A stretch of DNA of 34,247 nucleotides from a virus, in IMG/VR virus record IMGVR_UViG_3300025141_012580, positions 1 to 34,247 of that record; one strand, written 5' to 3'. Shown here one piece after another: positions 204 to 30,839 of the stretch. Below the pieces are notes generated by a model. The model had not been told where the DNA came from and ran no database searches. It saw nothing but the letters and a program-made list of their open reading frames with translations. Made by a program: the position numbers and the translations under genes. The stretch's first letter is position 1; each line of letters starts with the position of its first letter.

Positions 204-644
204 TTAGTCTCCTCCGTAAGTTGCATATAGCTGTTCATCGTCAATAGCCGGCGAGATTGATGCGCCGAATTTTCTTTTAACCTTCTCGCTAATCGGTATC
301 GCCTCACCATCACCATCGATTCGTACGAAAGTCATGTCGGTTGTCAACACGGTCTTTTGCGAACCGTTATACACGCTGTGTCTTCTTGCTTCAAGGTGAA
401 TTATTATCGACCTATTTCCAACCCTTTGGACTTCGCCATAAATTTTAATAATTTGACCTGGGCGGACCGGCTTTTCAAATACTACCTCTGTTATTTTCTT
501 TGTAACCATGCGCGGCGTATCGCAGGCCTGACAGGCGAAGGCTGCGCCGGCCTCGTCAAGCCACGCTAACATAGTTCCTCCAAATAGGTTCCCGTGATAG
601 CCAACATTCGCGGCCTTACAAAAGTGTGTAGATATTAACTGCAT
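204..644 (-). CDS. Hotdog-fold acyl-CoA thioesterase (YciA/ACOT type)
   Basis: This protein of about 146 residues looks like a complete single hotdog domain. Such enzymes hydrolyse acyl-CoA to free fatty acid and CoA in the cytoplasm. The signature is N-L-F-G-G-x4-W-L-D-E near residues 19-31, with Asn19 and Asp30 as the likely active-site residues. It is followed by the usual VVFEKPVRPGQ strand-loop and a GNRSI strand. I chose the ATG at 644 because GGAG lies 9 bases upstream. The in-frame ATG at 659 would add five residues but has no ribosome site. The start lies inside the 3' end of the 907-residue gene (stop at 635), so translation is probably coupled. A metabolic enzyme of this type is unusual next to phage replication genes. 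The family call is firm; the substrate is unknown. Confidence 0.85.
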   Translation of the reverse strand: MQLISTHFCKAANVGYHGNLFGGTMLAWLDEAGAAFACQACDTPRMVTKKITEVVFEKPVRPGQIIKIYGEVQRVGNRSIIIHLEARRHSVYNGSQKTVLTTDMTFVRIDGDGEAIPISEKVKRKFGASISPAIDDEQLYATYGGD

Positions 645-3358
645 AAAAACTTTCTCCATTTATTGTACATGCGTGCTGTCTGCCTGTGCCTGACCTCGGT
701 TAGCTCAGAAGATCCTTCGGGCTCTTCTTGCCGCATACCTGAAGGCATCCTGAGTCTTTTCATAGTCTGCAGAGTGTTCATGAGAATTGTTTCTATTTCT
801 TCATCGCCGATCTCTTCAATGACAGTCTTAAACAGAGAAGCTATTTCATTCGGGAGTTCGTCGTGGGTCACCAGAACAAATTCGTATTTTATTCCTCCAG
901 GACCGACACTAGAACCCGTAGAGTGCTCATCAATATCTATGTAATATTCTATCCCAGTCTGTTTGCGAAGGGGATCGAGCATGCTCTTGCGTACGGCCTG
1001 GCGAAACTCTCGATCCTCCAGCACCATCTGTAAAACTTTCGGATTCATCTCGACCTCATCCGGATCGAATACATATTCGACAGTAGCCGTTATCTCGTAG
1101 ACCTCGTCAGGATCATGCGGATTGTCCGTCTTTACAGTCCAGGCGTTAGTTGGCCATGGCCATTCGCCATTCACGACCTCATGTGCTAGCTTTAAAAACT
1201 CACCGCCATGCATGTGACCTTCATTTTTATAGTGTCTGGTAATAATATGTTTAATTCCATCGTACATGTCATCAATCTTATTGATGGCCGCGCCAAAGGA
1301 TTCGACCTCATCTGCGTCGATGGCCCATCTCGGGAGTGTGTCTGGGGGTGTAATTTTTGTAGGATCTATCTTAAAGCCTAGCTGTATATTATCGCTTTGT
1401 GACCTTTGGCCTCCAGGACCCAGGTGTCGACGATGAATCCAGGAGCTATCTTTATCTGCCCAGAGCCAGCCAAAGTCGTTGAGTTCGCCGACGGGCCAGT
1501 GGGCGGTGTTGGGGAGAGGCAGTTTATCCCAATCATCAAGGTTCCAAGTGACTGTCATCCATGCCTTGAGAAAAATAATAATTTGGCCATCCTCGTCCTG
1601 GATGTCGGCCTCGATTTCGGCGGCTTGATAAAGATTATTCCACTTATCTACTATTACATCCACTTCTCTCTGCAGTTCGGCCATTTGGCCGGCTGTGAAC
1701 ATGGTGGGATCTAGATCGTCTTCTTCCTCTGTATCTTGTCCGACATTCCCTACAAATTGATCTTCTGGCAAACCCGTGAGTTGAGACATTAGTATTTTGC
1801 GGCCCGCGGGCATGGCCGTGTCTTCGTATGAGCCGCCGACGATGGCAAAATTATCCAGTTCTATCAAACCGTTTTCATCCCTTGGCATTTTAGAGAGAAC
1901 TTCTTCTTGATTTTCTCTGGCCCAAGACGCAACACGATCTACAAATCCAGGAATTTTCTTGCCATACACGCGCTTCTCCGGTACCGCTAACTGAGCTGTG
2001 CTCCAGTGTGGACCGTGTTCTGTATCAAGGCCGGCGCGCTGATCGAAATCGTAGGTAAACTTTCTAAGACGGACTCTGGAGACCGGATTTATGTCATATC
2101 CGCCGGCGCCTGATCTTTTATCGTCTGGAAAAAGTTCACCTTCTTGGATCTCTTGTTCTGCACTGTCTATATTACCAGTATTTGTAGCACTCAGCAAGTC
2201 TTTTGTTTCGACAACATACGCGACGGCGCCGTGGCCGTGAGCCTCTGCGACAGCACATTTATAATGGGTATCACCGCCGCCTCTAGACGGAGGAGTGTGG
2301 CACGATGTGATGTTTTCAAAGTCGCTCATGCGTAGAATATCAATGGGATCCCTTGTAATGATGATGGAATATTTATCATTTTCAAGCGTGCCAATATTTT
2401 CTTTGATCCACTTAGCTTTTTTTAGCCAATAGGTGCCCATATCTGCAAATCGAGTCTCGGGCGGCACTATTGGTTTTCTATCGCGGGGCTCTTGGCCATG
2501 GTTGCGGTCCTGCTTATCCTGATAATCTCTGCGCGACTGCTCATTGGCTGTCCACTCTGATTGATCAAGAGGATTCATCATGTATCTTCCAAGTGCGCGC
2601 TGGCTTGAAGTTCCGAGATACAACTCTAACTGATTTAGTACTTGGCGGTAGCGTTGCATCTCCTGTTCAGTAAGCGCTTCGAGAATGTCTCTCATCTCAT
2701 ACCGAAGCAGCCACCTGTCTCGATCGGTAGGCTCGATAGTGCCTGGGCCGTGCTTATGGTCGCCAAGCTTTTGTAGTATTTTTTTGTATTGTGTTGCAAG
2801 CTGGTCGACCTTGGCAAAGTACTTGCCGATCTTCATCTGAAATGCTTTTTTTATCACCTTGGCCGGCGCATGCCTGCCCATAGTTCGCTGAACCAGTTGC
2901 TCAAAATTTTCTTCTGAGTGTTCGTCCCACTCTCTCTTCGCGGAAGCTATACCCTTATTCCAGTCTATATTTAGTTTAAATGTCCTCTCAAGTTCGTTAA
3001 CGAACTTGCCTAGCTCCGATTCGCTATCTTTCACTGGGAATCTGGTAACGAGGCGGGTTTTTCCGCGAAATAAGTCATTGAACGCCAAATCTTCCGGGCC
3101 CATTTCATTAATGGCTCTCCGAATGTGTTCCACTTCGGCTTCAGATATCTCACGAAGGAGGCGTACACCTTCTCCCATAGGAGGAGCGGACTTACCAGAT
3201 GGTTTAGTCATACCTCTGACTCCAGGGCCCTCTCTTTTGTCGTTGCTTCCTGTATTCAGTAGGAAGTTCAGTTCGTCGGGAAGATCATCCCTCATCTCCC
3301 TTTGAAACGGTTCTTCTTCGGCCAGGAACTGGCGCCACTTAGTGTGAAAGTCAGACAT
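635..3358 (-). CDS. Large protein of unknown function (907 aa), possible virion-packaged protein
   Basis: I do not recognise the family. The N-terminus reads KWRQFLAEEE (residues 7-16), like a T4 capsid-targeting peptide with an L-A-E protease site. A charged helical region spans roughly residues 90-300. Around residues 340-400 there is a distinctive block with ITRDPIDILRMSD, then SCHTP, a GGG turn, and A-E-A-H-G-H-G before AYVVE. Its Cys and His residues could be catalytic or metal-binding, but I see no known active site. The C-terminal third is acidic and ends NKWRKFL-C-S. Those last bases also form the ribosome site of the thioesterase, so the C-terminal likeness may be chance. The start at 3358 has TTAGG just upstream and lies 14 bases after the exonuclease stop. 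A virion or injected protein is an inference from the N-terminal peptide only. Confidence 0.85.
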   Translation of the reverse strand: MSDFHTKWRQFLAEEEPFQREMRDDLPDELNFLLNTGSNDKREGPGVRGMTKPSGKSAPPMGEGVRLLREISEAEVEHIRRAINEMGPEDLAFNDLFRGKTRLVTRFPVKDSESELGKFVNELERTFKLNIDWNKGIASAKREWDEHSEENFEQLVQRTMGRHAPAKVIKKAFQMKIGKYFAKVDQLATQYKKILQKLGDHKHGPGTIEPTDRDRWLLRYEMRDILEALTEQEMQRYRQVLNQLELYLGTSSQRALGRYMMNPLDQSEWTANEQSRRDYQDKQDRNHGQEPRDRKPIVPPETRFADMGTYWLKKAKWIKENIGTLENDKYSIIITRDPIDILRMSDFENITSCHTPPSRGGGDTHYKCAVAEAHGHGAVAYVVETKDLLSATNTGNIDSAEQEIQEGELFPDDKRSGAGGYDINPVSRVRLRKFTYDFDQRAGLDTEHGPHWSTAQLAVPEKRVYGKKIPGFVDRVASWARENQEEVLSKMPRDENGLIELDNFAIVGGSYEDTAMPAGRKILMSQLTGLPEDQFVGNVGQDTEEEDDLDPTMFTAGQMAELQREVDVIVDKWNNLYQAAEIEADIQDEDGQIIIFLKAWMTVTWNLDDWDKLPLPNTAHWPVGELNDFGWLWADKDSSWIHRRHLGPGGQRSQSDNIQLGFKIDPTKITPPDTLPRWAIDADEVESFGAAINKIDDMYDGIKHIITRHYKNEGHMHGGEFLKLAHEVVNGEWPWPTNAWTVKTDNPHDPDEVYEITATVEYVFDPDEVEMNPKVLQMVLEDREFRQAVRKSMLDPLRKQTGIEYYIDIDEHSTGSSVGPGGIKYEFVLVTHDELPNEIASLFKTVIEEIGDEEIETILMNTLQTMKRLRMPSGMRQEEPEGSSELTEVRHRQTARMYNKWRKFLCS

Positions 3359-3365
3359 TACCTAA

Positions 3366-3374
3366 TAAATAGTT
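3366..3374 (-). promoter_or_regulatory. Recurrent AACTATTTA motif upstream of the 907-residue gene
   Basis: The same 9-mer occurs before the sheath gene (24750-24742) and the 87-residue gene (27800-27792), and with one mismatch before the scaffold gene (32204-32196). All are in the same orientation. It could be part of a phage promoter or leader element. Here it spans the exonuclease stop codon and the bases just before the ribosome site. Confidence 0.3.
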
Positions 3375-4338
3375 ATTCTGCCGCGTTGTTGGCCACAATT
3401 CTTTTCATCGAGGCGAATAAATCTGAAAAGTCGACCACACCGAAGCCATCTTCAATCATCATAGTCTTAAATGTAGTTTGATTTAACTCCGTATCGAAGT
3501 TTTCAATGACATATTTCAGTTTTGTTTTGCCCTGCACGCTAATGGACGGTGCATATAACTGCATCATTTTATAATTATGCTCGATAATCTCTTTATTTTC
3601 TGCGATCGTTTTATAAACTTTTAAATTACCTTCAGCATTGTCACAATGTTTAATAACACTATCGATAGTATAGGTCTTATTTTCAATTAAGAAGGGTAAG
3701 CGCTTGGCGATAGTTGAGAGGCCAACACCTTTAATTCCAGGCAGATTATCGCTGCGATCGCCGACGATGGCTCTTGCGAGTGCAAAATTAACAGGATGAA
3801 TGCCGAACTCCTCAACAATTCTCTTAGAGTTTAAAACTTGTTTCTGAATTGGTCGGTACAGGACTACTTCTTCGTTACAAAGTTGAAAGAAATCTTTATC
3901 GGACGATACGATAACTTTTTGCCAGGAATCGTACTTCTTGTTCTGGCATACAAACGAAATAATGTCATCGGCTTCAACATTCGGCAACACAACCTGTATA
4001 ATTGGCAAATGGTTGAGGTATTCGAATAGCCTAGTTTGCTGCCAGATTTTGTTGGCCGTCTCCTCAGACTCAGTTAGATTTCTAATATCTCGATTGAGAC
4101 GAATAGGTTTTCGGCCTTGTTTATAATTTTTATCCTGCGACTTCCGGCGCTGGGATCCGCCTTCGCCATCCCAGCAGACCACTATCTCATCTGGACGGGT
4201 TTCTCTGATTAGTTTTTGCAGAATTCCTAGGAAACCCTTTACGCCTCCAATCGGCTGGCCGTTTGTGGACAAGCTCGGATTAACAATGTATGCCCTAAAA
4301 TACATATTAAGAGCATCAACTACCAATAATCTTTTCAT
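3373..4338 (-). CDS. 5'-3' exonuclease / flap endonuclease (Pol I N-domain, T4 RNase H-like)
   Basis: This is a protein of 321 residues from the start I prefer. It should remove RNA primers and 5' flaps during lagging-strand synthesis. The FEN/PIN acidic residues are present: D8 (VVDALNMYFRAY), D57 (CWDGE), E122/D124/D125 (VEADD), D147 and D149 (SSDKDF), and D194/D197 (GDRSDN). A helix-hairpin-helix, GIKGVGLSTIAKRL, follows. The ATG at 4338 overlaps the upstream TGA as ATGA and has GGTGA 7 bases before it; the protein then starts MKRLLVVDA, as family members do. The same frame is open back to an ATG at 4434, which would add 32 atypical residues overlapping the upstream gene. With the separate family A polymerase at 8260-9456, it completes a split Pol I toolkit. 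Confidence 0.93.
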   Translation of the reverse strand: MKRLLVVDALNMYFRAYIVNPSLSTNGQPIGGVKGFLGILQKLIRETRPDEIVVCWDGEGGSQRRKSQDKNYKQGRKPIRLNRDIRNLTESEETANKIWQQTRLFEYLNHLPIIQVVLPNVEADDIISFVCQNKKYDSWQKVIVSSDKDFFQLCNEEVVLYRPIQKQVLNSKRIVEEFGIHPVNFALARAIVGDRSDNLPGIKGVGLSTIAKRLPFLIENKTYTIDSVIKHCDNAEGNLKVYKTIAENKEIIEHNYKMMQLYAPSISVQGKTKLKYVIENFDTELNQTTFKTMMIEDGFGVVDFSDLFASMKRIVANNAAE

Positions 4339-4580
4339 CTTTTGTTCACCGGATAATGTTTGATCCATTTTTCGGATATCTTCTTCTTCAAGAAGCTCTC
4401 CAATATGCGCGACTGCCATCCTATAACCTCCCATAAAGTACCAACATGTTGACGCCTTCTTTCATCATAATATGGTTGCTGTTTTTTATGTAGAATGCCT
4501 TGTTCTGGCTTGCCATTATCATACTTGATAACCATATCGCCAATATTTAATTTTATCTTTTTCCATGGCCTACTGTTCAT
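4335..4580 (-). CDS. Small basic protein, possible SH3-like barrel
   Basis: This protein of about 81 residues is of unknown function. The N-terminal half has KLNIGDMVIKYDNGKPEQGI followed by a TLWEVIGW strand, the pattern of small SH3-like barrels common in large marine phages. The C-terminal part is a Lys-rich helix. I favour the ATG at 4580 over the one at 4595, because the latter lies inside the arm of a perfect hairpin (4590-4616). The GGGG of that arm, 9 bases before the 4580 start, is the best ribosome-site candidate, so access to it may depend on whether the hairpin forms. The stop overlaps the exonuclease ATG (ATGA), indicating translational coupling. Confidence 0.65.
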   Translation of the reverse strand: MNSRPWKKIKLNIGDMVIKYDNGKPEQGILHKKQQPYYDERRRQHVGTLWEVIGWQSRILESFLKKKISEKWIKHYPVNKR

Positions 4581-4994: not shown

Positions 4995-6107
4995 TTATTC
5001 ACCTGTTCCATAAAATTCTTCTGCAATACCCTCTCTCTTATCGAACTTCATAATCACTTCTTCATCCATGATCTCTAACACATTCTTTCGAAACTCTTCA
5101 TTAGACAACTTCTCGGGCCACTTGCTAGCCTGAAACTTTGGACCAATTGGTTTCCCTTTTCTGTCCAGCAGTTCATACCATGCGCCGGAGCGCTTCAGTC
5201 TGTGCGAGCCAGAGATGGCATCAAACCAACTTTCTTCATCTTGTACTCCGATCTCGTCGCCCCACAGAATACGAAAATTACATTGTCGGCCCTGCGTTCC
5301 AAAGCGAGATTTCTCAAGTTTAACTTTCACCTCCGATCCTATTCTAAAGCCTTTATCATCAAGCACAAAACTTGCCTTTGCTTTGCGGCCGGTAAGCCAG
5401 ATCCGTAAGGAGTAGGCATAAATCATAGCCTTGCCGCCGGGCGTCATATACGGCGTTGTGAGGGCTTCAGATGGAGAACGAGTAATATTAGTCTTAAGCT
5501 GGTTAAGTACAAGGAAGGTGCTCTGAGAGTTGGCTATCGGTACCGTAAGCTTGGACATGCCCTTGGCCAAGATCCTTGCCTTGACGGCCATCGAAGATAA
5601 GGGATTAAAATCGCCCTCGATATCTGATATTGCTGGTGTTAAGGCTAACGAATCCCATATGAATAACATACGGTTATCGTTCGAACCAAGAAGTTCTTCA
5701 ATCGTTTCCAACACAAACTCTACAGAAGCTGCCTGCACATACAGGAGGCTACTCACATCACAGCCGGCCCTTTCTAAAAACGAAGGATCGATTGCGGACT
5801 CTGAGTCGAAATAAATGACATCAATTCCTATCTTTTGTGCGTTAGCCGCAACCTGTGCAGCCATATAGGACTTCCCCGTTGCTTCTAATCCAGCGATTTC
5901 AACAATTTTTCCAACCGGAACACCAGCGAGTCGACCACGACAGATGATCGAGTCAAGCCATCGTGATCCAGTAGGAATCCAATCCTTAACAGCAGTTGGA
6001 TTGTCTTTTGTAAGATCGTGTGCAACATTCTGGCCCGCCTTTTTATTAATCAAAGCCCTCATATCTGCCATAGAGAGCTTGCCTACTTTTGTTTTGGTTC
6101 TACCCAT
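4995..6107 (-). CDS. uvsX: UvsX/RecA-family recombinase
   Basis: This is a 370-residue RecA-fold strand-exchange ATPase, which forms filaments on single-stranded DNA in recombination-dependent replication and repair. Walker A is GLEATGKS (residues 73-80). The catalytic glutamate region is DSESAID (E103), and Walker B is MLFIWD (147-152). The loop-2 region includes NQLKTN, followed by PSEAL and TPGGKA. The length is close to T4 UvsX (about 390). An AAGGA site lies 6 bases before the ATG. It is transcribed after ssb with an intervening hairpin (6138-6162). This mirrors the functional pairing of gp32 and UvsX in T4. Whether it is closer to phage UvsX or bacterial RecA needs a tree; I use the phage name because of context. 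Confidence 0.92.
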   Translation of the reverse strand: MGRTKTKVGKLSMADMRALINKKAGQNVAHDLTKDNPTAVKDWIPTGSRWLDSIICRGRLAGVPVGKIVEIAGLEATGKSYMAAQVAANAQKIGIDVIYFDSESAIDPSFLERAGCDVSSLLYVQAASVEFVLETIEELLGSNDNRMLFIWDSLALTPAISDIEGDFNPLSSMAVKARILAKGMSKLTVPIANSQSTFLVLNQLKTNITRSPSEALTTPYMTPGGKAMIYAYSLRIWLTGRKAKASFVLDDKGFRIGSEVKVKLEKSRFGTQGRQCNFRILWGDEIGVQDEESWFDAISGSHRLKRSGAWYELLDRKGKPIGPKFQASKWPEKLSNEEFRKNVLEIMDEEVIMKFDKREGIAEEFYGTGE

Positions 6108-6189: not shown

Positions 6190-6975
6190 TCACGCATTCA
6201 TAAGTTCGTCAAATGCTCGGTCGACACTCGAAGTAGTGGACGCAGGCGGTACAGTAGAGGAAGAGTCGTTGGTATACTTCGTTGACTCTGTTGATGCCTG
6301 TTCGGCGCCGGAATCCCCTAACAGGAAAGCGTCCAACATAGCACCAACCTCCTCCGGAGTCTTTCTCTCAAAGAGAGAGTTAAAGTCTGGGATCGATTCC
6401 AGAAGCTCTGCACAGTATTCGTCTCCTCCGTTAGACTCATCGCACAACTGGCTTGGGCGTCGGCGAGGAGTGAGCTTCGTTTGCGGAAACGATGCGCCAG
6501 CTGGCTTACCGTAATGCAAGACGAGATCAGTGCCTGTATCTGGATCAGTGATATCACCGTACTCGGGATTAAGAACAAGGTTGATGAGTTGCTCATACAC
6601 CATCTTTCCAAAGCCCCAAACACGAACTCCCTTGGCCTCTTCACCCCTTACAATTACTGGGGCAAAAAACCGTTGGCGAGCCATCAGGTTTTTGGCCATT
6701 TTGATGCTTTCCTCAGTGCCCTCATTAAAAAGTTTGCGTACGAAAGCGTCAAGCGGATCATCTTCTCCAAAATTCTTCTTCGGACTTAAGAATCCAGAAT
6801 TATTTCCGACATTATAATGGAACCAGAAGTCCTTGAACGGATCTCCATCGGCGGTGGGAACAATGCGGATCGTCTGTTCTCCATCTTGAGGACGCCAGAA
6901 ATAGGATCCCCCTCCATTGCCTCTATGTTCAAGAGCCTGCTTTCGGGCCCTCATTTTACTCATATCAATTGCCAT
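6190..6975 (-). CDS. Single-stranded DNA-binding protein, T4 gp32-like
   Basis: This protein of 261 residues coats single-stranded DNA at the replication fork and in recombination. The N-terminus is basic (SKMRARKQALEHRG). It is followed by a core with YFWRPQDGEQTIRIVP, FKDFWFHYNVG and GVRVWGFGKMVYEQL, the last matching the KVFKYRFGKKIWDKI strand-helix of T4 gp32. The tail is Ser/Thr-rich with an acidic end (DRAFDELMNA), like the partner-binding C-terminus of gp32. The Cys/His zinc site of T4 gp32 is absent: the expected region reads GFLSPKKNFGEDDP. AAGGAG lies 9 bases before the ATG. The gene has its own strong promoter (7067-7095) and a structured leader that may be a translational operator. 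It is followed by uvsX. Confidence 0.85.
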   Translation of the reverse strand: MAIDMSKMRARKQALEHRGNGGGSYFWRPQDGEQTIRIVPTADGDPFKDFWFHYNVGNNSGFLSPKKNFGEDDPLDAFVRKLFNEGTEESIKMAKNLMARQRFFAPVIVRGEEAKGVRVWGFGKMVYEQLINLVLNPEYGDITDPDTGTDLVLHYGKPAGASFPQTKLTPRRRPSQLCDESNGGDEYCAELLESIPDFNSLFERKTPEEVGAMLDAFLLGDSGAEQASTESTKYTNDSSSTVPPASTTSSVDRAFDELMNA

Positions 6976-7103: not shown

Positions 7104-7403
7104 TTAAAAATCTTTTTTAAGCGGTACGGCATAATACGCGTTGTTGCCGGAGGCACACCAGCAGCGGCCTTCGTCATCATAACTTTCGTATTCCATTTCT
7201 AAAAATGCGCATCCGACTTGGCACTGCCCTTCTCTTTTGCCATGTTCATAGCCCTTATCATAAGAAGAGAGGCCTAGATATACAGCAGAACCAACAACCG
7301 ATACTATTAGTAATACAACCGATGTCCATTTCCAAAAAGCTTTCCACGGAAGCCGACCGATCCAGCCGAAGATGCCTGATATTATTTCTCTTATTTTTTT
7401 CAT
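7104..7403 (-). CDS. Small single-pass membrane protein with a Cys-containing C-terminal domain
   Basis: This 99-residue protein is of unknown function. A basic, aromatic N-terminus (residues 1-27) precedes one transmembrane helix (about 28-48, SVVLLIVSVVGSAVYLGL). The C-terminal 50 residues hold four cysteines (C-x3-C then C-x-C) and an acidic loop. The positive-inside pattern predicts a cytoplasmic N-terminus and an outer, possibly disulfide-bonded C-terminal part. The ATG overlaps the upstream stop (ATGA), with GGAG inside the upstream gene, so it is translationally coupled to the FtsZ-like gene. A membrane anchor partner for that protein is a tempting but untested idea. Confidence 0.75.
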   Translation of the reverse strand: MKKIREIISGIFGWIGRLPWKAFWKWTSVVLLIVSVVGSAVYLGLSSYDKGYEHGKREGQCQVGCAFLEMEYESYDDEGRCWCASGNNAYYAVPLKKDF

Positions 7404-8251
7404 TTGTAATTTGCTCCTTGTATTATAGAAGAGCTTGAAACAATATAGACAAAAGGCTCTTCATATTCTGATTGGTATACACCAAAGTTTATTTTTATTT
7501 TACCATCTTCCGTTCGTTTTTTAACCTGATCCATTATCTTTTTCATCAACTTGACATCTTTGTTTAAAACATCTTCGGGAATTAAATAATAATAAGTTTT
7601 TTCTTTGGGATACTCGATTGGGAATAACAGCAATTCTTCTTGCTCTTCGATCGAGGCCATCCCGAAAGTGCAGATTCTCGCTATATCGATTGCGGGAGTA
7701 AAATTAGCATACACAGGCTCACTATGTGTCATAACATTTATTATATGAAAAACAAACGAAACAAATTCTGCTGTCTTTTTCTTGTAGTCAATAATCGGTA
7801 CCTCTCCTATCGCCGTGCTGAGCAGTTCTTGAGAGACTATATAAATCTTTGAAAATATTCCGGACCTAGCATATTCTTGAAACACATTAAACGCAGCATT
7901 GTTTAATAATCGGCCGTGGGCGTCGAGCAAAAGCGCATCAGGCTTAAAATATATTATACTTATACTTGTGCGATCCTTGATTGTTTCTAAAATTCTTAAA
8001 GTAGCCGAGCAGATTGCGTCCTGGCCCGACACGACCAGCGCAGCTTCGCCACTTATATTTTTAAAAAAGTTTTTCATCGATGGGCACTGCTCTTCATATT
8101 GCTCAGCGCTTGAAAAGTTGGGAAAATTATATATCCCATTTTTTTTCAAGCCCGACAAGCCATGATCAATCTTGTATACACTGTATTGTGGATGTTCTTT
8201 TAGTTTGTCCACAACCTCACAGCCAAATCCTCCGAGACCTATCAAATTCAT
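7400..8251 (-). CDS. Divergent FtsZ/tubulin-fold protein with degenerate GTPase motifs
   Basis: This is a 283-residue protein. Its layout follows the FtsZ core: a first strand and P-loop-like turn LIGLGGFGCEVVDKL (residues 3-17); a second strand with an Asp, YKIDHGLSGLKK (26-37), like FtsZ FAVNTDxQAL; a strand leading to SGQDAICSATLRILE (75-89), where FtsZ has GGGTGTG; a strand and acidic region (98-110); and VYANFTPAIDI (180-190), where FtsZ has the synergy loop NVDFADV. The C-terminal part (220-283) has alternating helices and strands, like the FtsZ C-terminal domain. The tubulin signature glycines and the catalytic acidic pair are missing, so it may bind nucleotide weakly or not at all. 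The gene lies between polA and the membrane protein with tight coupling. The fold call is pattern-based inference. Confidence 0.55.
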   Translation of the reverse strand: MNLIGLGGFGCEVVDKLKEHPQYSVYKIDHGLSGLKKNGIYNFPNFSSAEQYEEQCPSMKNFFKNISGEAALVVSGQDAICSATLRILETIKDRTSISIIYFKPDALLLDAHGRLLNNAAFNVFQEYARSGIFSKIYIVSQELLSTAIGEVPIIDYKKKTAEFVSFVFHIINVMTHSEPVYANFTPAIDIARICTFGMASIEEQEELLLFPIEYPKEKTYYYLIPEDVLNKDVKLMKKIMDQVKKRTEDGKIKINFGVYQSEYEEPFVYIVSSSSIIQGANYK

Positions 8252-8259
8252 ATCCTGCT

Positions 8260-9456
8260 TTACCCTAACTCTCTCATACTTCCATAATCCACGCCGGCGC
8301 TAATGTTTATTTCAAAGTTTCCAAGAGCCGTTTCCGAGAAAGTTAATGCCAGGAGAGGAATAAGATCTTTTTCCTCATGTGACAGATCAATTATCACACT
8401 ATCGTGCATTGTGAATGCCACAAATGATTTACAATTTTGCAACAAGCTGTGTAACCTATACATCTGTTTTAGTGTATTGTCTGAACTAGTGCTTTGCACT
8501 AAGTAATTAATTGCATGATGCGAGTCTGCTTCTATTTTTCTTCCGAAGGGAGTGCTTATTACACCATTTGAGTAGTACATCCCTTCTATAAATGCTTTGT
8601 CATAATATTTATCTGGAGCATTGTCTGTAGAGTTAGGATTATACAGCCAAGCAAATATTTTCTTTTTTGCCTCGTCCCTTGTTACTCTATCATTGTATAT
8701 GTTCTTTACATTCCAAGCATGGATATCTTCTCTTGGCTGTTTTTGGTTGCTTAAAGATAAAATCGTTCTTAGCTCTGCGGCGTTAAAATCAAACTCCACA
8801 AACCAATCGTTTGTTGGTTTCAGAACGGAGCGATATTTCTTATCCATTGTTAAGATTGGAAAAGTACCTTTTTTTGTTGTGAGGCGGCCGGTCTTGGTGC
8901 CAAATATATTGTAATCACAAATCTGCTTACTCTGGCTTACCTTCTGTATGAAATTTTTTGCTGCAAGATTGTGGGCCTGATTCCTCAGTGCCGAGAGATC
9001 TAAATTTAGCGGCTGTCTTTTAATTTCCTCTAGCACTTTCGTTAGCCTTACTAAAAACATATAATTTTCTGGTCTTTGGTAATTGTCAAATACATATTTG
9101 GTTATGTCATTTCTTATATCATAGTAACTTAATAAGAACTTGTGGGGTACAAGATTGAAAAAACAATTTTCGTCCAACGACACCTTTGCTTCCATAAAAG
9201 ATCTCAAAAAAGCCTTCAATTTTGTTGTGTGGATATCTAATCGGTCTTGCAGGTGAGGAGGGCATACCTCTTCGAACGACTGCCCGGCACAGTATAAGCT
9301 TGCAAAGTCAATTCTACTGCTGTTAATGCCCTCAAGAGCGCTCGAATATTTCCATGTCTTGCTCAAGTTTTCTGGCAATTCTTCTTCAAAAAATAGTTTG
9401 CCGGCCGCACAGTATCCCATACAATCTATTTTATTATCTATCAGTTGAAATAACAA
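8260..9456 (-). CDS. Family A DNA polymerase, polymerase domain only
   Basis: This protein of 398 residues carries the Pol I palm and fingers: TGRLTT (189-194); motif A DFNAAELR (223-230, with metal-binding D223); motif B R260-x3-K264-x3-F268-x3-Y272; TPFGRK (302-307); the AINYLVQSTSSD helix (315-326); and motif C HDS (351-353, with metal-binding D352). Motif C is normally HDE, so the Glu is replaced by Ser; motif B has Ala in place of the usual Gly after Phe268. The 180 N-terminal residues show no 3'-5' exonuclease motifs, so proofreading appears absent. The start is TTG at 9456, with AAGGA 7 bases upstream. The 5' nuclease is a separate gene (3373-4338). T4-like phages usually carry a family B polymerase, so this is a mosaic. 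Confidence 0.9.
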   Translation of the reverse strand: MLFQLIDNKIDCMGYCAAGKLFFEEELPENLSKTWKYSSALEGINSSRIDFASLYCAGQSFEEVCPPHLQDRLDIHTTKLKAFLRSFMEAKVSLDENCFFNLVPHKFLLSYYDIRNDITKYVFDNYQRPENYMFLVRLTKVLEEIKRQPLNLDLSALRNQAHNLAAKNFIQKVSQSKQICDYNIFGTKTGRLTTKKGTFPILTMDKKYRSVLKPTNDWFVEFDFNAAELRTILSLSNQKQPREDIHAWNVKNIYNDRVTRDEAKKKIFAWLYNPNSTDNAPDKYYDKAFIEGMYYSNGVISTPFGRKIEADSHHAINYLVQSTSSDNTLKQMYRLHSLLQNCKSFVAFTMHDSVIIDLSHEEKDLIPLLALTFSETALGNFEINISAGVDYGSMRELG

Positions 9457-9472: not shown

Positions 9473-10786
9473 TTAATAATCAGTCGTTTCTATCGCAACA
9501 TTTGACTGATATTCTGACTGTTGTCGCTTTTCAAGCTTCTCTGCATTGGGTAAGAATTTTTGTGGAGGTAGCCGATTTTCAAATGCTTCGTTCTTAAACT
9601 GTTCATTAATATAACTCACTGCGGCCTCGATGTCAAGATTTTTTTCTACGCCAACGGCTGTTTTTGTTATTCTGTCTATAATATTTTCGGTAAACTTGCC
9701 AATAGATTCAACCGCTTTAATTTCACAGTAAAGTTTAATCCATTGGGATGTTTTTATTTTTTCGTTTAACTGATCTACTGTATATCTTGTTCGCTTTATT
9801 TTTATGGGAGTGGTTCCGCCGGCGGTGCACCTAGGTGATCTGCGCTTGGCCACGGGATTCTTGTCAACAAACCCATTCCACATTGCCAGTATAAGCTTCT
9901 TTATATTTTCGATATCGCCGTGGAGCGCTGCTGTATAATGAGTATTCCACAAGTCTTCTTTCGAGGTTAGCCTCTCTTCCATGTAGCCGGCCATGGCCGA
10001 GGAGTCGAGGTTCGCCACTATTTGCCACGGCGCATTTTTATTAATCATAAACCCGTGCTTTAATGCAGCTTGTCTATAGAAATCAAATATGATCTCGTTC
10101 ATGAATACGGACTTAGCCTCATCGTCATCAAATTTAGTATCCTTTAATATAATTGACAAGCCGCTATTGATTACGGAACAATGACTGGATGACAGAATCG
10201 AAGTATGGGTTATTGGAACTTTTTTCAATATCTCCTGGTTGCTTCGGATGTGTTGTGAGACCTTGTCCATAAATTGTTCTATTGTTACTAAATCATTAAG
10301 CCTTCTCCAGTGTGATTTGCCTGTTGCTCTATGATCAAAAATGCCCATTTCGATACTTCGGACTGTATACACAACCGCTATACTGGCAGCAATCGTATGA
10401 GGTTTCCACGCGCTGATGACTTTTAGATTTACATCATCTGCCGAGATGCCACAACGAGATTCTCTTACAAGAGTTTCAAACTCCTTTATAAAATTTTCAT
10501 AAGCGTCCACTACGAAGTCTGCAGCCCTATGCCCTGATGCCTTTTTGTCAGCGGGAGTGCTTTTAAAATATCTTGTGCGGCCCGGCTGGAGAATTACAAA
10601 ATTTCTTTTTTCATCTGTCCTGCCATAGAATGACAAGTCGGTTCCTACAAAGAAATCTTGAACTCCGGAGGTGAACACCCCATCCTCTGTTAGGAAAAGT
10701 GCACCATCTCTGTACTCTTTGCGGTTTTCGAATAGCGCCCTGGCCTGTTGGCTATTTTTCCCTTTAAAATCATATTCATTTGCCAT
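9473..10786 (-). CDS. Protein of unknown function at the structural/replication boundary (437 aa)
   Basis: I do not recognise a family. The first 80 residues look like small beta elements (GALFLTEDGVFTSG, NFVILQPGRTRYF). Residues 85-330 are mixed alpha/beta, including HGFMINKNAPWQIVANLDS and AALHGDIENIKKLILAMWNGF. A Cys/Gly/Arg-rich turn (RRSPRCTAGG) occurs near residue 320, followed by IKIKRTRYTVDQLN, and the C-terminal 80 residues are charged and helical. There is no signal peptide or membrane helix. The start follows the hub-like gene after three bases with a GGAG site, and the stop is 17 bases before polA. The spacing suggests a virion or assembly protein expressed with the baseplate genes, but that is only context. 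Confidence 0.8.
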   Translation of the reverse strand: MANEYDFKGKNSQQARALFENRKEYRDGALFLTEDGVFTSGVQDFFVGTDLSFYGRTDEKRNFVILQPGRTRYFKSTPADKKASGHRAADFVVDAYENFIKEFETLVRESRCGISADDVNLKVISAWKPHTIAASIAVVYTVRSIEMGIFDHRATGKSHWRRLNDLVTIEQFMDKVSQHIRSNQEILKKVPITHTSILSSSHCSVINSGLSIILKDTKFDDDEAKSVFMNEIIFDFYRQAALKHGFMINKNAPWQIVANLDSSAMAGYMEERLTSKEDLWNTHYTAALHGDIENIKKLILAMWNGFVDKNPVAKRRSPRCTAGGTTPIKIKRTRYTVDQLNEKIKTSQWIKLYCEIKAVESIGKFTENIIDRITKTAVGVEKNLDIEAAVSYINEQFKNEAFENRLPPQKFLPNAEKLEKRQQSEYQSNVAIETTDY

Positions 10787-10789
10787 TAT

Positions 10790-13700
10790 TTAGTCTCCAG
10801 CCTCGGGAGTGCCCGGGTCGCCGAACGGTAACTCGCTAGCAGGGCCGGACCCAGGCTCGCCCGAAAGTGGCGCGATGGATAGTGCAAACGACGACGCGTC
10901 TTCAGAGGTAATGCGGGCGCCTTTTGCGAGTAGATTTTGTTCATTTCCGGAGGAAGCCTTGCAGATATCAAGTCTACCGGCAGAATGCCACACACACTTT
11001 AAAGTAGTTTCATAGAACTCTGCGGTGATAGTACTCTCAATATCCAGCACGACATAGTATCCGCCTAGGCCCAACAACAAAGCAGCATCAGTATAATCGG
11101 TGCCAAAATCGCCAGAACCAACACTGTCTGGATTTATGTATATATATTGTCCCGGCAGAAAGAAGGTGTTCCCCTGCATTATAACCGTTGCCTCATATCT
11201 CCCTCTCAGCTGATTATATCCAAAAGCTCCGTGACCCATAAGTCTTGCCTCGGCAAGGTATTCTTGATCTGTTCGTGTAAATTTAATACTCTTGATCATG
11301 CCCTGGTTTTGGCCTAAATAAAAATGAAATATTCCGCGAGACAAATCCCCTGGCATGGTTGGATTGTCGGCATATGCTTCTCCTAGCTGGGACTCAATCC
11401 AGCCGCCGGGCTCAGATGCCGCCTCCGCCTCTTCGTCGGTCTCTAGGCCCAATAAAGTAGACGACTCATAGCCCCGGGCATAAATAGCTATAAAGTGAAA
11501 AACTTCTGTATTGTCTTCGCTCGTTTCGAACAGAGATGTCTTGGGACTATCAGGATTCATGGCATCTCCCGCCAGAGCATTCATAATTTTATTAACATCG
11601 ATACGATAATTCGGCTCCTCGCCATCTGGAGGATCTGGATTTATGTACATCTCTGGCGAGGTTATAAATGATGCAGGATTTTCATACTCTTCCGTCTCCG
11701 GATTGTAATAGGCTGGAAGCGTAAAATTAGTAATTCCGATATCGAAGGTCTGCTCGGTAAAGTTCGACTGGGCGGGACTAGCATAACATCCTCTACCACC
11801 TAAAATATCTAACACCAAATCGTTTAATGTGTCATTTATAAATTGTTTTAAGTTATAGCTATAGACGCCCGGGCGTTGAATTTTGTTGATAAAAAACTCA
11901 TTCCATCTGGCCAAAGATATTGGAATGTCTGCGAGATTGACATCTCTTGTAATTCCTTTAACGGGATCAAAATATTCTACCGAACCAACTACAATATTAA
12001 GCTTATCAAACTTCCTCTCTTTCATGTTATCTAGTCTTTTTATAGCATCATATATTGTAACTGTTTGTTGATTTTGTGATGCATCTCCCATTGACTGCGG
12101 TACCGACGGGCCCATGATGCTACCGCCGGTATTGTTTGTCTGGCCTGGGACTGGGTTACTGTCTGCTTCAGGAGTATTTGGAGCTTCATAAAAAAGATCA
12201 AGAGCTGATAACGATCCAAAATACTGATATAAGCGATCTTGGGCGGCGCCGGCCTGTTTGGCCATATCGGAAAATGTATCTAGAGCGACATAAAATTGAT
12301 CTGGTGTAAAGGGAGGGCGCCACAAAGCTTTTCTGATTGCCCAATCCAACAGATCTCCGTAATAAATATATCTGAGCGGATAGGTGTTATTACCCACAGC
12401 CTGCTTGGTGGCAGCATCCTGATCGCCAACAGGATTTCCGCTGCCAAGATTGAGATCGTGCAACACCTGTCTTGTAACAGTGCTGTTAATAGCCCGCTGA
12501 GAGATGTGTGACTGCTGTTCATTGCCGGTGGCCAGCCCGGGTGACATTCCTTCGCCGATGGCCTGATCCATTTGTTCCCCGATTTCCCGGGCCTGCTCAT
12601 CATCGAGCGCTATCGAGCCCGGGGCGATTCCGGTGCCAGCCAAGGCCCCGGAGGAGCCCATGCCCGTGTCTAGGGAGAGGGTGCGGTCATTGCCCCCCGT
12701 GTCTTGTTGGGCCCACGGAGGCTCAACAAAAGTAATGGAAGTAACATCCTCGGCGCCGGTGGCGTTCTCGGTTTCCCGGCCGACAGCCATTGGATCAACT
12801 AAAATTGTTTTAATTCTAGATAGTCCAAGATGCGCACCTGGCCATCCCGTGCCTGGTATCGTTGTCAGGCCTCCGTGGTCGGCGCCGTGGGGGTAAGCAT
12901 AGCTCAGGGGCCACGGTGCACCGTATAATCCGGCCGGAGGCGTTCCTCCAGCATAGGCACTATCCGAAAAGGCTACGAGCCTCGTGAAGCCGGTTTGGGG
13001 GTCCTGGAGATGGCCACCGGCATTGCCGCCGGTGGCGGTGGCGGAATAATCTACAGGATCTTCTTTCAACTTTCTGCCGCGGTTGGTAACAACCCGGGTT
13101 TCGCCAAGATGTTGATCATTCAATGTTGGAATGTATGTTTCGTCCCATAACCATTTTTGTAATGTAGCATATCCCATGCCTCTCGTCAGGCCGCGCATTT
13201 CGTTTAGATGACTTATAAGTGCATCTTTCAGGCCCTCGTCGCTCAACTCATTGGCGGGCCCTTTGGATAGGCCCGCTCGCTGGGTGCCGCGGGCGGTGGG
13301 ATCGGCACTAGCTTCATATGCATTTTGCGGATCCGCTCTAATGTTCCCGTCTCCCGATACTATTTGATCGTCGCCAGTTTCCAATGCCTCTATCATTGCT
13401 TCAATCTGCGCCTGTCTCGTTCTTTCGAACACGGTTAAAAACAGGTCTGTATTTCTATCTTCTAATATGCCTTCGATTGCGGCCTTATACGATATATCAA
13501 GGCTCATGGTACCATCTTCGTTATAGGAAATAACATGATCATAGATTGTTAAGTATAATATTATGCTAGCACTTTTCAAATTTTGCCTTTGTGCTGGACT
13601 GAAAGGCGCGCCGTCCTTAAATTCCCAGCCGACCACGGCTTTAAGCTCAAAATACTCTGGATCATACAACCACATCCATTTACAGAAAGCCTCACTATCC

Positions 13701-14407
13701 GCATCGCTAACACCGCGAGGGACCGAAGCTTCTCCGGTGCTGGCTGTACGCATTATCAAATCTGCGAACTGGAAGTAACAGTCTTCTTTTTCTGCCAGAG
13801 TCCCGTCTTCCTTGGGTTCGGGAGGGTTTAATGTTGCTGAGAACGGGCCGCGCTTTTCAAATAATTCTCGGATATCATTAAGGTGTATGCTCAAATTCGC
13901 ACTTAAAAGATTGGCGGCCTCTGCCGGGTTTGTACCCTCATATTTCCAGCTAAACCCTCTTATACCCACTCCCGTGCCGCGGCCTGCGCGGTCAGACAAC
14001 ATCCTTTCTACTGGATTAGAGTGTTCTGCTAGTGCAGTGTTTTCTATGATTCCCGGGAAATTGTCAGCAAATAATAGTTCAACATCCCAAGTTTTGTCTT
14101 CGTGTTCGGCGCCGGGCTGGCCGAGATAAGTTTTGTATAGTCTAATTTTTGGTACTAAGAACGAAAGTTGGTATGGGGTAAGGTGTAATAACGAAGCCAG
14201 ATCCGATCTGCCTGTTAAGGCGCTCATCATCTCTGTCGGTTTGCCCTTAATTGGTATAAAGGATGTATATTTACAGTTTTCGTTAAAATGAGCTATGCCT
14301 ATCCCGTCGCCCTCATCGTCTGGGAGGGCCCCCTCTAACAGGTAATGTAGCAATAGGCATTGCTCATTTTTCTTTCTCCTCGCTAACCGGCTATCCGAAA
14401 CTGACAT
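10790..14407 (-). CDS. Very large baseplate hub-like structural protein (1205 aa)
   Basis: This large protein is probably part of the baseplate hub. The C-terminal 300 residues have the features of hub/gpD-like domains: a strand-rich region with IKSIKFTRTDQEYLAEARLM, then GRYEATVIMQGNTFFLPGQY followed by IYINP, and LGLGGYYVVLDIES. That PGQ-x-IYI-x-P...LGLGGYY pattern is typical of tail proteins that complete a beta barrel. The middle (about residues 450-780) is a low-complexity region rich in Gly, Ala, Pro and Thr with many turns. The N-terminal part (ALTGRSDLASLLHLTPYQLSFLVPKIRLYK) is helical. It lies after the LysM protein with a GGAG site. T4 gp27 and gp5 are far shorter, so this could be a fusion or an expanded hub. 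The exact equivalent is uncertain. Confidence 0.75.
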   Translation of the reverse strand: MSVSDSRLARRKKNEQCLLLHYLLEGALPDDEGDGIGIAHFNENCKYTSFIPIKGKPTEMMSALTGRSDLASLLHLTPYQLSFLVPKIRLYKTYLGQPGAEHEDKTWDVELLFADNFPGIIENTALAEHSNPVERMLSDRAGRGTGVGIRGFSWKYEGTNPAEAANLLSANLSIHLNDIRELFEKRGPFSATLNPPEPKEDGTLAEKEDCYFQFADLIMRTASTGEASVPRGVSDADSEAFCKWMWLYDPEYFELKAVVGWEFKDGAPFSPAQRQNLKSASIILYLTIYDHVISYNEDGTMSLDISYKAAIEGILEDRNTDLFLTVFERTRQAQIEAMIEALETGDDQIVSGDGNIRADPQNAYEASADPTARGTQRAGLSKGPANELSDEGLKDALISHLNEMRGLTRGMGYATLQKWLWDETYIPTLNDQHLGETRVVTNRGRKLKEDPVDYSATATGGNAGGHLQDPQTGFTRLVAFSDSAYAGGTPPAGLYGAPWPLSYAYPHGADHGGLTTIPGTGWPGAHLGLSRIKTILVDPMAVGRETENATGAEDVTSITFVEPPWAQQDTGGNDRTLSLDTGMGSSGALAGTGIAPGSIALDDEQAREIGEQMDQAIGEGMSPGLATGNEQQSHISQRAINSTVTRQVLHDLNLGSGNPVGDQDAATKQAVGNNTYPLRYIYYGDLLDWAIRKALWRPPFTPDQFYVALDTFSDMAKQAGAAQDRLYQYFGSLSALDLFYEAPNTPEADSNPVPGQTNNTGGSIMGPSVPQSMGDASQNQQTVTIYDAIKRLDNMKERKFDKLNIVVGSVEYFDPVKGITRDVNLADIPISLARWNEFFINKIQRPGVYSYNLKQFINDTLNDLVLDILGGRGCYASPAQSNFTEQTFDIGITNFTLPAYYNPETEEYENPASFITSPEMYINPDPPDGEEPNYRIDVNKIMNALAGDAMNPDSPKTSLFETSEDNTEVFHFIAIYARGYESSTLLGLETDEEAEAASEPGGWIESQLGEAYADNPTMPGDLSRGIFHFYLGQNQGMIKSIKFTRTDQEYLAEARLMGHGAFGYNQLRGRYEATVIMQGNTFFLPGQYIYINPDSVGSGDFGTDYTDAALLLGLGGYYVVLDIESTITAEFYETTLKCVWHSAGRLDICKASSGNEQNLLAKGARITSEDASSFALSIAPLSGEPGSGPASELPFGDPGTPEAGD

Positions 14408-28949: not shown

Positions 28950-30839
28950 CTAGCTTGTGGCGCCAGCCTCACCCAGTAGACCGCGAACGATGACTAATCC
29001 ATACATATCAGGACGGACCATCTTCTTACCGTAGCGCGTCATGACGCCCTTACGGGGTACGAAGTCTTCCGTTCCGAAGATTGTAGGAGTGGTCTGCAGC
29101 GGCACATAAGGTGCGTACACATAACCGCTCTCAAGGAAGCTGTTACCGCGTCGTCCAACGAGGACCACATTACGGGGGAAGTACGGGTCAACCCAAACAT
29201 CCCACTTCTTGGAGATCGAGCCAGCGTTAACTGCCCCGACAGTGCCCTTATCGGCATCAGCGGTAATGTTAGCGCGGAATCCACTAGTGAACTCAAGGAT
29301 ATTGGCAACTTCGGGGCCTACGACCAAGAAGTTAGCTCCACCCCGCAGAGTCTTGCGGTGGATCTGTGCCGACACATCGTTGACGGTCTCGACAAGAGTC
29401 TCGTACCACTCGCTAACTGTACCGGTGAAGTCGGGCGCAGCAGAGCTAGCTCCGATTTCAACGCCAGATACGCGATTGAGGAACATACCCGGGGAACGAG
29501 CCCAGTAATATGTACCAGCAGTGGCGCCTCTAATGAGGTCGTTGACGATCTCGCGGTCAATCTCAAGAGCAATTTGCTCAGAGAGAATGCCAGTAAGCTC
29601 GACCTCGGCATCAAGGTTGTGATAGGCATTAAGATCCTGTCCCAACTCTGGTGTCCACTTGGCCTTCAGCTTCTTGGTGATCGCGGTGATTGCTGTTGAA
29701 TCGACCTTGATGTCGATCTCGGGGATTCCCGGATCATTTTCAAGACCCCAAACATCAGCACCAACGACGGCACCAAGTGCTCTCTCGCCGACATTATCGA
29801 GGTTGTCGATGATCGGATAAGAGAAAGACTTACCGGTCGCGCCGGCGACATCTGTAGATGCTCCGTTGTTTTCGATCAACGAGGCGTCGATTGTGCCAGC
29901 CGCGGTGGAACCAACAGCCTGCCAAACCATGATGACAGATGCATCACCCTGAGAACCAAGATGGTTATCAAGATCTAGCTGACGAAGTCCCTTACCTACC
30001 GAGTTCTGATCGACAATATCTGTCAATCGGCGAACCAGTCGGCACTCGCTTCTATCGACATCAGACTTATGTGTCGCGCCAGAACCTGTTGCTTCAATTG
30101 CAATTAGGTTATCGGTGTTAAGTCTAGAACCAGATGCATGCAGCCACTGTCCAGAAGCAGAAGCTGCTGTGATGACTACAACGGAACCAGAAAGATCTGG
30201 ATCGTAGCGAACCAGTTTGTCGGCTGTGAGCGTTGTGCTTCCGCCGTGATATCCACTAAATGTGAACTCATATGCGGATCCGCCAGAGGTTTTAACGCCA
30301 TCACCAATAGTACCCTGCCAGACAACATCGAGATCAAGCTGAGTTGATCCTGTTGGAGACGAGTAGCCCTGATTCATGGAATAAAATCCAGCTTCGGCGA
30401 AAGAACCAGTAAGGCTTACACCTCCCTGGAGTTCCTGACCGACCACGCCGCCACCGAAGAGCGACTGATCACCGTCGGAGCTACCGCGAGTGGTAGATCC
30501 AGGTGTGAACTGGAAGTCAAGGAAGAAGATGAGGCCCGAAGGTAAACTCATCGGCTGAACCGAGACAAGATCGTTAGCGATTAAGCCACCGAAAACTCGG
30601 CGCACGATTGGGAATGCAACAGATGCAAAACCCTCGACATCTCCACCAGCCATGGTAGATGCCTCGCGCAAAAGCTCTTTAGCTTGATTTTCAAGCAAAC
30701 GAGCCATGTTAGAACGGTTATTGTCGTTGCTAAGACCTTCTAAAAGACCGGTGCGTTCCCACTTAGAGAGTAGAGCGCTGCCTTCCTTGCCGAGATCCCT
30801 GCTGACAATACCTTCTGTTAATTTCTTTAAAACAGACAT
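28950..30839 (-). CDS. Major capsid protein (gp23-like)
   Basis: This is the 629-residue HK97-fold shell protein. After an N-terminal delta-like region comes NMARLLENQAKELLREA (44-60), then VAFPIVRRVFGGLIANDLVS (74-93) and VQPMSLPSGLIFFLDFQF. In T4 gp23 the same places read VRRAIPNLIAFDI and VQPMNSPTGQVFAL. The C-terminal half has LGQDLNAYHNLDAEVELTGI, SEQIALEIDREIVNDL, and the P-domain strands ending YGLVIVRGLL. The N-terminal segment has KWERTGLLEG and several L-x-E triplets (LLE34, LLE50, LRE59) that could be prohead-protease sites; T4 gp23 loses its first 65 residues this way. AAGGAG precedes the ATG. It follows the gp22-like gene by 41 bases and has its own terminator. Confidence 0.95.
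   Translation of the reverse strand: MSVLKKLTEGIVSRDLGKEGSALLSKWERTGLLEGLSNDNNRSNMARLLENQAKELLREASTMAGGDVEGFASVAFPIVRRVFGGLIANDLVSVQPMSLPSGLIFFLDFQFTPGSTTRGSSDGDQSLFGGGVVGQELQGGVSLTGSFAEAGFYSMNQGYSSPTGSTQLDLDVVWQGTIGDGVKTSGGSAYEFTFSGYHGGSTTLTADKLVRYDPDLSGSVVVITAASASGQWLHASGSRLNTDNLIAIEATGSGATHKSDVDRSECRLVRRLTDIVDQNSVGKGLRQLDLDNHLGSQGDASVIMVWQAVGSTAAGTIDASLIENNGASTDVAGATGKSFSYPIIDNLDNVGERALGAVVGADVWGLENDPGIPEIDIKVDSTAITAITKKLKAKWTPELGQDLNAYHNLDAEVELTGILSEQIALEIDREIVNDLIRGATAGTYYWARSPGMFLNRVSGVEIGASSAAPDFTGTVSEWYETLVETVNDVSAQIHRKTLRGGANFLVVGPEVANILEFTSGFRANITADADKGTVGAVNAGSISKKWDVWVDPYFPRNVVLVGRRGNSFLESGYVYAPYVPLQTTPTIFGTEDFVPRKGVMTRYGKKMVRPDMYGLVIVRGLLGEAGATS

Follow-up and report, generated by a model that had tools for sequence, protein, structure and literature searches.

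The window analysed here is the whole of a 34-kb virus fragment (34,247 nucleotides; IMG/VR record IMGVR_UViG_3300025141_012580). T4-type tail genes and the gene for a T4-type major capsid protein lie upstream of its replication genes. Within the replication genes is a minus-strand open reading frame, 7400–8251, that starts with ATG and encodes a protein of 283 residues, here called FtsZL. The gene and its neighbours are as follows:

8260–9456, minus strand: short family A DNA polymerase (polA), 398 residues, TTG start as listed (DNA_pol_A, E 1.5e-12)
7400–8251, minus strand: FtsZL, predicted tubulin/FtsZ-fold protein without GTPase motifs, 283 residues (AlphaFold2 and VIA-align)
7104–7403, minus strand: 99-residue protein with one hydrophobic segment, membrane-type (open reading frame listing)
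6190–6975, minus strand: gp32-like single-strand DNA-binding protein (gp32, E 6.7e-13; phrog_1192, E 1.6e-23)
4995–6107, minus strand: UvsX/RecA-type recombinase (RecA, E 5.3e-35; phrog_97, E 1.1e-53)
3373–4434, minus strand: 5'-3' exonuclease (5_3_exonuc_N, E 3e-31)

The polA stop codon lies 8 nucleotides upstream of the FtsZL start, and the start of the 99-residue protein overlaps the FtsZL stop by 4 nucleotides. The initial annotation, made from this sequence alone, had described the gene as encoded among replication genes. Its place is in fact a fixed one: polA adjoins FtsZL in relatives too, and the recurring order there is polA-FtsZL-gp32-uvsX-exo.

Several neighbouring genes deserve mention in their own right. 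The polymerase, at about 398 residues (family mean, 396), is too short to include the proofreading exonuclease domain that such enzymes usually have. No Pfam or PHROG match was obtained for the proteins of 1205, 437, and 907 residues (10790–14407, 9473–10786, and 635–3358, respectively); many relatives keep the first two in synteny with gp25, polA, and FtsZL. The 99-residue protein contains a Cys pattern, and similar small proteins occupy its slot in loci L001, L235, L236, L246, L251, and L254. A membrane anchor as a core part of the system was considered and rejected, because the 99-residue membrane protein occurs in few relatives only. Directly after FtsZL in L220, L072, L207, and some 20 other loci is a conserved gene for about 80–95 residues (MKAYTGTF..KKNG..RTM.FV.L.DLP).

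Scanning viral contigs with the single FtsZL sequence identified 13 relatives at identities of 28–74%, and a profile scan identified 95. A scan by way of polA contributed 73 additional distinct full-length sequences. Lengths in the first member set range from 268 to 292 residues. The open reading frame is more than a chance one: it has these relatives, the same predicted fold in two members, and a full-length structural match. No relative turned up when the genomes of 84,980 prokaryote species were scanned with the profile, and no cellular or prophage version was seen; tblastn with two members found no match in 50,697 phage records. Profile searches of RM378, immuto, Mel-JY01, C48C1, and two huge phages found none, and permissive local searches of RM378 and parts of the other phages returned noise only. 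E. coli FtsZ, used as a query in the viral contigs, gave no pattern match, and neither the window protein nor its profile drew a usable match from Pfam, PHROGs, or PDB sequences. The family is seen only in uncultured Far-T4-like aquatic phages, of which a large group carries it.

The assignment to Far-T4-like phages comes from the major capsid protein (28950–30839). Its nearest named records are Flavobacterium phage immuto (47% identity), Microcystis phage Mel-JY01 (46%), and RM378 (42%), followed by cyanophages at about 31%; the 42–47% identities to RM378 and immuto span about 55–60% of the capsid protein length. Judged by these capsid neighbours, the source genome appears to be Far-T4-like. 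The capsid also is near those of uncultured 484-kb and 595-kb phages, so that Far-T4-like capsids reach into very large phages. Others have linked this uncultured phage group to Flavobacteriales or Bacteroidetes hosts (PMC13037479, PMC7198788). Papers on Far-T4 phages make no mention of FtsZ or tubulin, and none combining Far-T4 and FtsZ was found in the literature searched.

What kind of protein is FtsZL? The initial annotation had proposed an FtsZ/tubulin-like protein, and structure prediction bears this out. From a 66-sequence alignment, AlphaFold2 modelled the window protein as a complete two-domain tubulin/FtsZ fold (pLDDT 93.3, pTM 0.91). The same fold was predicted for L077, a divergent member only 32% identical to the window protein, at the head of a 121-sequence alignment (pLDDT 96.2, pTM 0.93). 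The best PDB matches of the window model in Foldseek were FtsZ, TubZ, and CetZ (E 2.5e-12). VIA-align, with coverage of residues 1–283, matched this model to CetZ with a Z of 25.2 over 258 residues at 3.0 Å, and to FtsZ and TubZ with Z values of about 22–23; for the L077 model the values were 25.8 and 24.9 (CetZ) and 24.2 (TubZ). The CetZ matches of both models cover 256–258 residues, and most structural matches of either model comprise 256–275 aligned residues, with a Z of about 22–26, across both domains. The best 50 were all FtsZ, TubZ, CetZ, or tubulin entries. Structural matches to predicted viral proteins were led by phage FtsZ-type proteins and PhuZ.

Sequence comparison alone provides weak proof of FtsZ homology, so the homology claim rests mainly on structure prediction. 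The window protein has no hit to the Pfam tubulin family (PF00091), and 6 of 66 members have weak ones (best E 0.0014) that do not reach the cut-off. Weak hits to TrkA_N are more frequent (19 of the 66; best E 0.00097), and might suggest that FtsZL is some other Rossmann protein, NAD-binding or TrkA_N-like, whose resemblance to tubulin is due to chance. Profile-profile comparison with FtsZ leaves room for this explanation, being marginal (E 0.026–0.037; 4 of 300 column shuffles reached its score). However, the real FtsZL-FtsZ alignment extends over 176 columns and lines up T1, T4, T6, and the start of H7, whereas no shuffle exceeds 97; and both confident models match tubulins over two domains. 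A chance resemblance therefore is highly improbable. No different fold emerged, and no match to ThiF or to an NAD-binding family beyond the sub-threshold TrkA_N/NAD-type Pfam hits. Membership of FtsZL in the tubulin/FtsZ superfamily by predicted fold is well supported.

The elements of the fold can be placed on the gene:

8219–8239, minus strand: T1-type loop, residues 5–11, GLGGFGC (aligned with FtsZ T1)
8003–8029, minus strand: T4 position, residues 75–83, SGQDAICSA, which replaces GGGTGTG (alignment register)
7859–7891, minus strand: H5 motif, residues 121–131, FNVFQEYARSG (conservation counts, 121 members)
7829–7831, minus strand: T6 position 141, Gln in the window protein and Asn in 107 of 121 members (aligned with FtsZ N165)
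7727–7795, minus strand: core helix H7, residues 153–175 (DSSP on the model)
7676–7726, minus strand: T7/H8 slot, residues 176–192, a short loop with no helix and no NxDxx[DE] (DSSP on both models and motif count)

The motifs named at the outset are all present where they were said to be. GLGGFG (residues 5–10) stands at the end of strand 2–6; Asp29 ends the second strand, 24–29; SGQDAICSA directly follows strand 68–75; and VYANFTPA (residues 180–187) directly follows the long helix 153–175. For VYANFTPA, suggested as a stand-in for the synergy loop, the position holds; the idea of an altered loop followed by H8 does not, as H8 is absent from both models and H7 leads through a short loop to S7. 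Within the T1-type loop, Gly7 is invariant and Cys11 is present in 116 of 121 members. The most conserved stretch of the family is the H5 motif, with Q125 and S130 each in 120 of 121 members and R129 in 119. Positions kept throughout the 121-member alignment are H5 QEYARS, two residues close to the H7 end (His169 and Asn172), Arg192, and Gln278. Conservation thus sits in H5, the H7 end, and Gln278; the nucleotide pocket is not conserved throughout.

Tubulin-superfamily proteins are best known as polymerising GTPases. The GGGTGTG motif is their phosphate loop; GTP hydrolysis is catalysed by the T7 loop and H8, which also supply the bottom of the filament contact. The absence of the GTPase signature, first noted in the window protein, extends to the entire family: GGGTG[TS]G occurs in none of the 121 members, and NxDxx[DE] in none of their T7 slots (residues 176–192), five regular-expression matches starting later, at 198–202. 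Both models show S7 at residues 193–199, no H8 before it, and a hairpin in place of H9. With neither the phosphate-loop motif nor a T7 loop and H8, GTP hydrolysis and canonical filaments are not expected; on sequence and models together, both hydrolysis and canonical protofilament formation by FtsZL appear very unlikely.

Binding of a nucleotide is a separate matter. FtsZL positions 141, 157, and 161 align with FtsZ N165 (T6), F182, and N186 (H7 start), in a register taken from the marginal profile alignment; in FtsZ, these residues contact guanine. Position 161, within H7, is Asn in 108 of 121 members and Ala in the window protein. N141 and N161 are both kept in 107 members and both lost in 13, with one member mixed. 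The T4 glycine at position 78 is missing in all 13 members without N161, versus 8 of the 108 with it. In a tree from which columns 141, 157, and 161 were left out, the N161 state switches at least five times, and well-supported branches force four of these switches. The window protein (Q141, K157, A161) belongs, together with L001, to a pocket-less lineage. These sequence patterns indicate that a likely nucleotide pocket was lost several times independently, on at least four branches.

Such patterns raise the question of a nucleotide sensor, in which FtsZL would bind GTP, GDP, or dGTP without turnover and report the pool to the polymerase or to a regulator. Joint retention of N141 and N161, their joint loss along with the T4 glycine, and the correspondence of N141, Y157, and N161 to the three FtsZ positions all favour this idea. 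However, the coupled loss comprises only four independent pairs, in which N141 and G78 change alike almost always (p 0.125; four pairs cannot reach significance), and the phosphate loop is altered in every member. Moreover, because the window protein has lost all three pocket positions, nucleotide sensing cannot be the function shared by the family. As a general explanation the sensor is decidedly unlikely.

Comparison with known tubulins sharpens the picture. FtsZL shares its two-domain fold, glycine-rich T1, and core helix H7 with the archaeal and bacterial GTPases CetZ and FtsZ, but it lacks GGGTG[TS]G, the T7 motif, and H8, has a hairpin for H9, is shorter, and was found here in phages only. 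PhuZ and TubZ also represent the tubulin fold in phages and plasmids: the TubZ proteins of B. cereus and B. thuringiensis match with a Z of 22–24, and phage Noxifer PhuZ is among the viral-model matches. Both form filaments driven by GTP and have a catalytic T7 loop (PMC3678025, PMC7950403). FtsZL, in contrast, has neither the T7 loop nor a C-terminal tail helix of the PhuZ kind (in the window model only 9 residues, and no helix, follow the last strand, 267–274), and its gene keeps a constant place next to polA. The FtsZl1 and FtsZl2 proteins of Makarova and Koonin (2010) keep the signature GTP-binding loop and have long extra regions (PMC2875224), whereas FtsZL has no signature loop and, at 283 residues in all, no long C-terminal region. 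The literature searched, which covered few subscription journals, yielded no earlier description of a family of pseudo-GTPase tubulins with a fixed place next to a phage DNA polymerase.

PhuZ provides a precedent for the positioning of phage DNA (PMC7950403). With a tubulin fold and a replication context, FtsZL might serve as its static counterpart: a GTP-independent scaffold, self-assembled through non-canonical contacts, that organises or positions replicating phage DNA. The missing T7 loop, H8, and canonical bottom contact argue against such a scaffold, as does the lack of the tail helix. Nor was a partner tubulin found; a search for a canonical one (PF00091, E 1) in 12 contigs of 86–204 kb detected none. 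The scaffold thus is doubtful.

Gene order offers clues to function. All 79 testable contigs that were reached through polA, in a search that did not use FtsZL itself, carried FtsZL. This set comprised the 80 nearest polA relatives rather than a random sample, so deeper branches may differ in FtsZL presence. Of 123 loci, 63 have FtsZL overlapping or abutting polA, and 87 have the two genes within 30 nucleotides of each other; gp32 is never overlapped. In the 12 contigs of 86–204 kb FtsZL is single copy, and no T4-type sliding clamp was detected there at threshold. Pairwise FtsZL identities track those of polA best (r 0.63, versus 0.58 and 0.42 for the other two neighbours).

Other Far-T4-like phages manage differently. 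Flavobacterium phage immuto has the same polA-gp32-uvsX-exo order, but two different small genes fill the slot and FtsZL is not detectable; the 484-kb phage LR756508 has a related polA-gp32-uvsX-exo module, again without FtsZL; and RM378, a Far-T4-like isolate with a related capsid, has no detected FtsZL. Such a polymerase therefore does not need FtsZL in general, and FtsZL looks like a clade-specific core gene in a module found without it in other Far-T4-like phages. The possibility that immuto gp002 and gp003 are a split FtsZL was rejected, as they have no profile similarity to it. Immuto gp002 (L269, 1346–1801) and an LR756508 open reading frame (L271, 10785–11174), both between polA and gp32, share the pattern NTLYTIN.LN.LI..LN.G.LD, and so represent another family in the slot. 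Immuto also encodes a 441-residue polA relative besides its full-length one.

That the gene is universally present and coupled to polA suggests a part in replication more than in host division. Counted against a replication role are the immuto and LR756508 modules, the polA-FtsZL gap of at least 0.3 kb in about a quarter of loci, the median pI of 5.7, which speaks against simple DNA binding, and the rate of evolution: FtsZL is the fastest-evolving of the four genes (median pairwise identity 39%, versus 46% for polA, 56% for gp32, and 66% for uvsX). Fast evolution keeps a host-facing reading alive. FtsZL might bind one end of a host FtsZ filament by a tubulin-type longitudinal contact, as a cap or decoy, and so stop host division during infection; without T7 and H8, it would block further growth of the filament. 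A terminator subunit would be compatible with its fold and its lack of a bottom face, and unrelated phage proteins are known to target FtsZ: T7 Gp0.4, T5 Hdi, and lambda Kil (PMC4944311, PMC10714956, PMC3961180). However, its constant place between polA and gp32 and its coupling to polA are unlike those of a host-takeover accessory gene, and 13 members persist although the nucleotide-side face that capping would use is degraded in them. A cap or decoy is possible; it is unlikely, and less likely than a replication subunit or regulator.

Together, universality, single copy, polA coupling, and independence of the pocket favour a tubulin-fold protein that does not polymerise and serves phage DNA replication as a subunit or regulator. 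This is the best reading, though a tentative one. The role and a partner in replication are what gene order, universality, and conservation make most likely. The initial annotation had offered three possibilities; the non-polymerising regulator fits best, and nothing here specifically supports a capping subunit or a host-FtsZ decoy.

How might such a protein work? FtsZL would be a minimal tubulin-superfamily protein turned pseudo-GTPase, with both domains and H7 kept. Translated together with the short PolA, it would act as a folded unit in the replication module, and its conserved surface (H5 QEYARS, the H7 end, and the C-terminal Gln) may be where it binds PolA, gp32, or some other protein of replication. 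Most lineages could keep a guanine nucleotide bound as a structural or sensing ligand; the window lineage would have lost the pocket and kept the rest.

In a common group of uncultured phages, the replication module includes a core gene, that for FtsZL, which has gone unannotated. The hydrolysis machinery is absent from the whole family and the likely pocket has been lost repeatedly, yet the gene remains beside polA in every testable contig. Lineages with and without the pocket form a natural series for asking what the tubulin fold does without GTP turnover. More tentatively still, a tubulin devoid of GTP hydrolysis and polymerisation may have become a fixed subunit or regulator of the phage replication machine, a non-cytoskeletal use in a widespread clade of aquatic phages. 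The family thus suggests that a cytoskeleton protein has been put to another, probably replication-linked, use.
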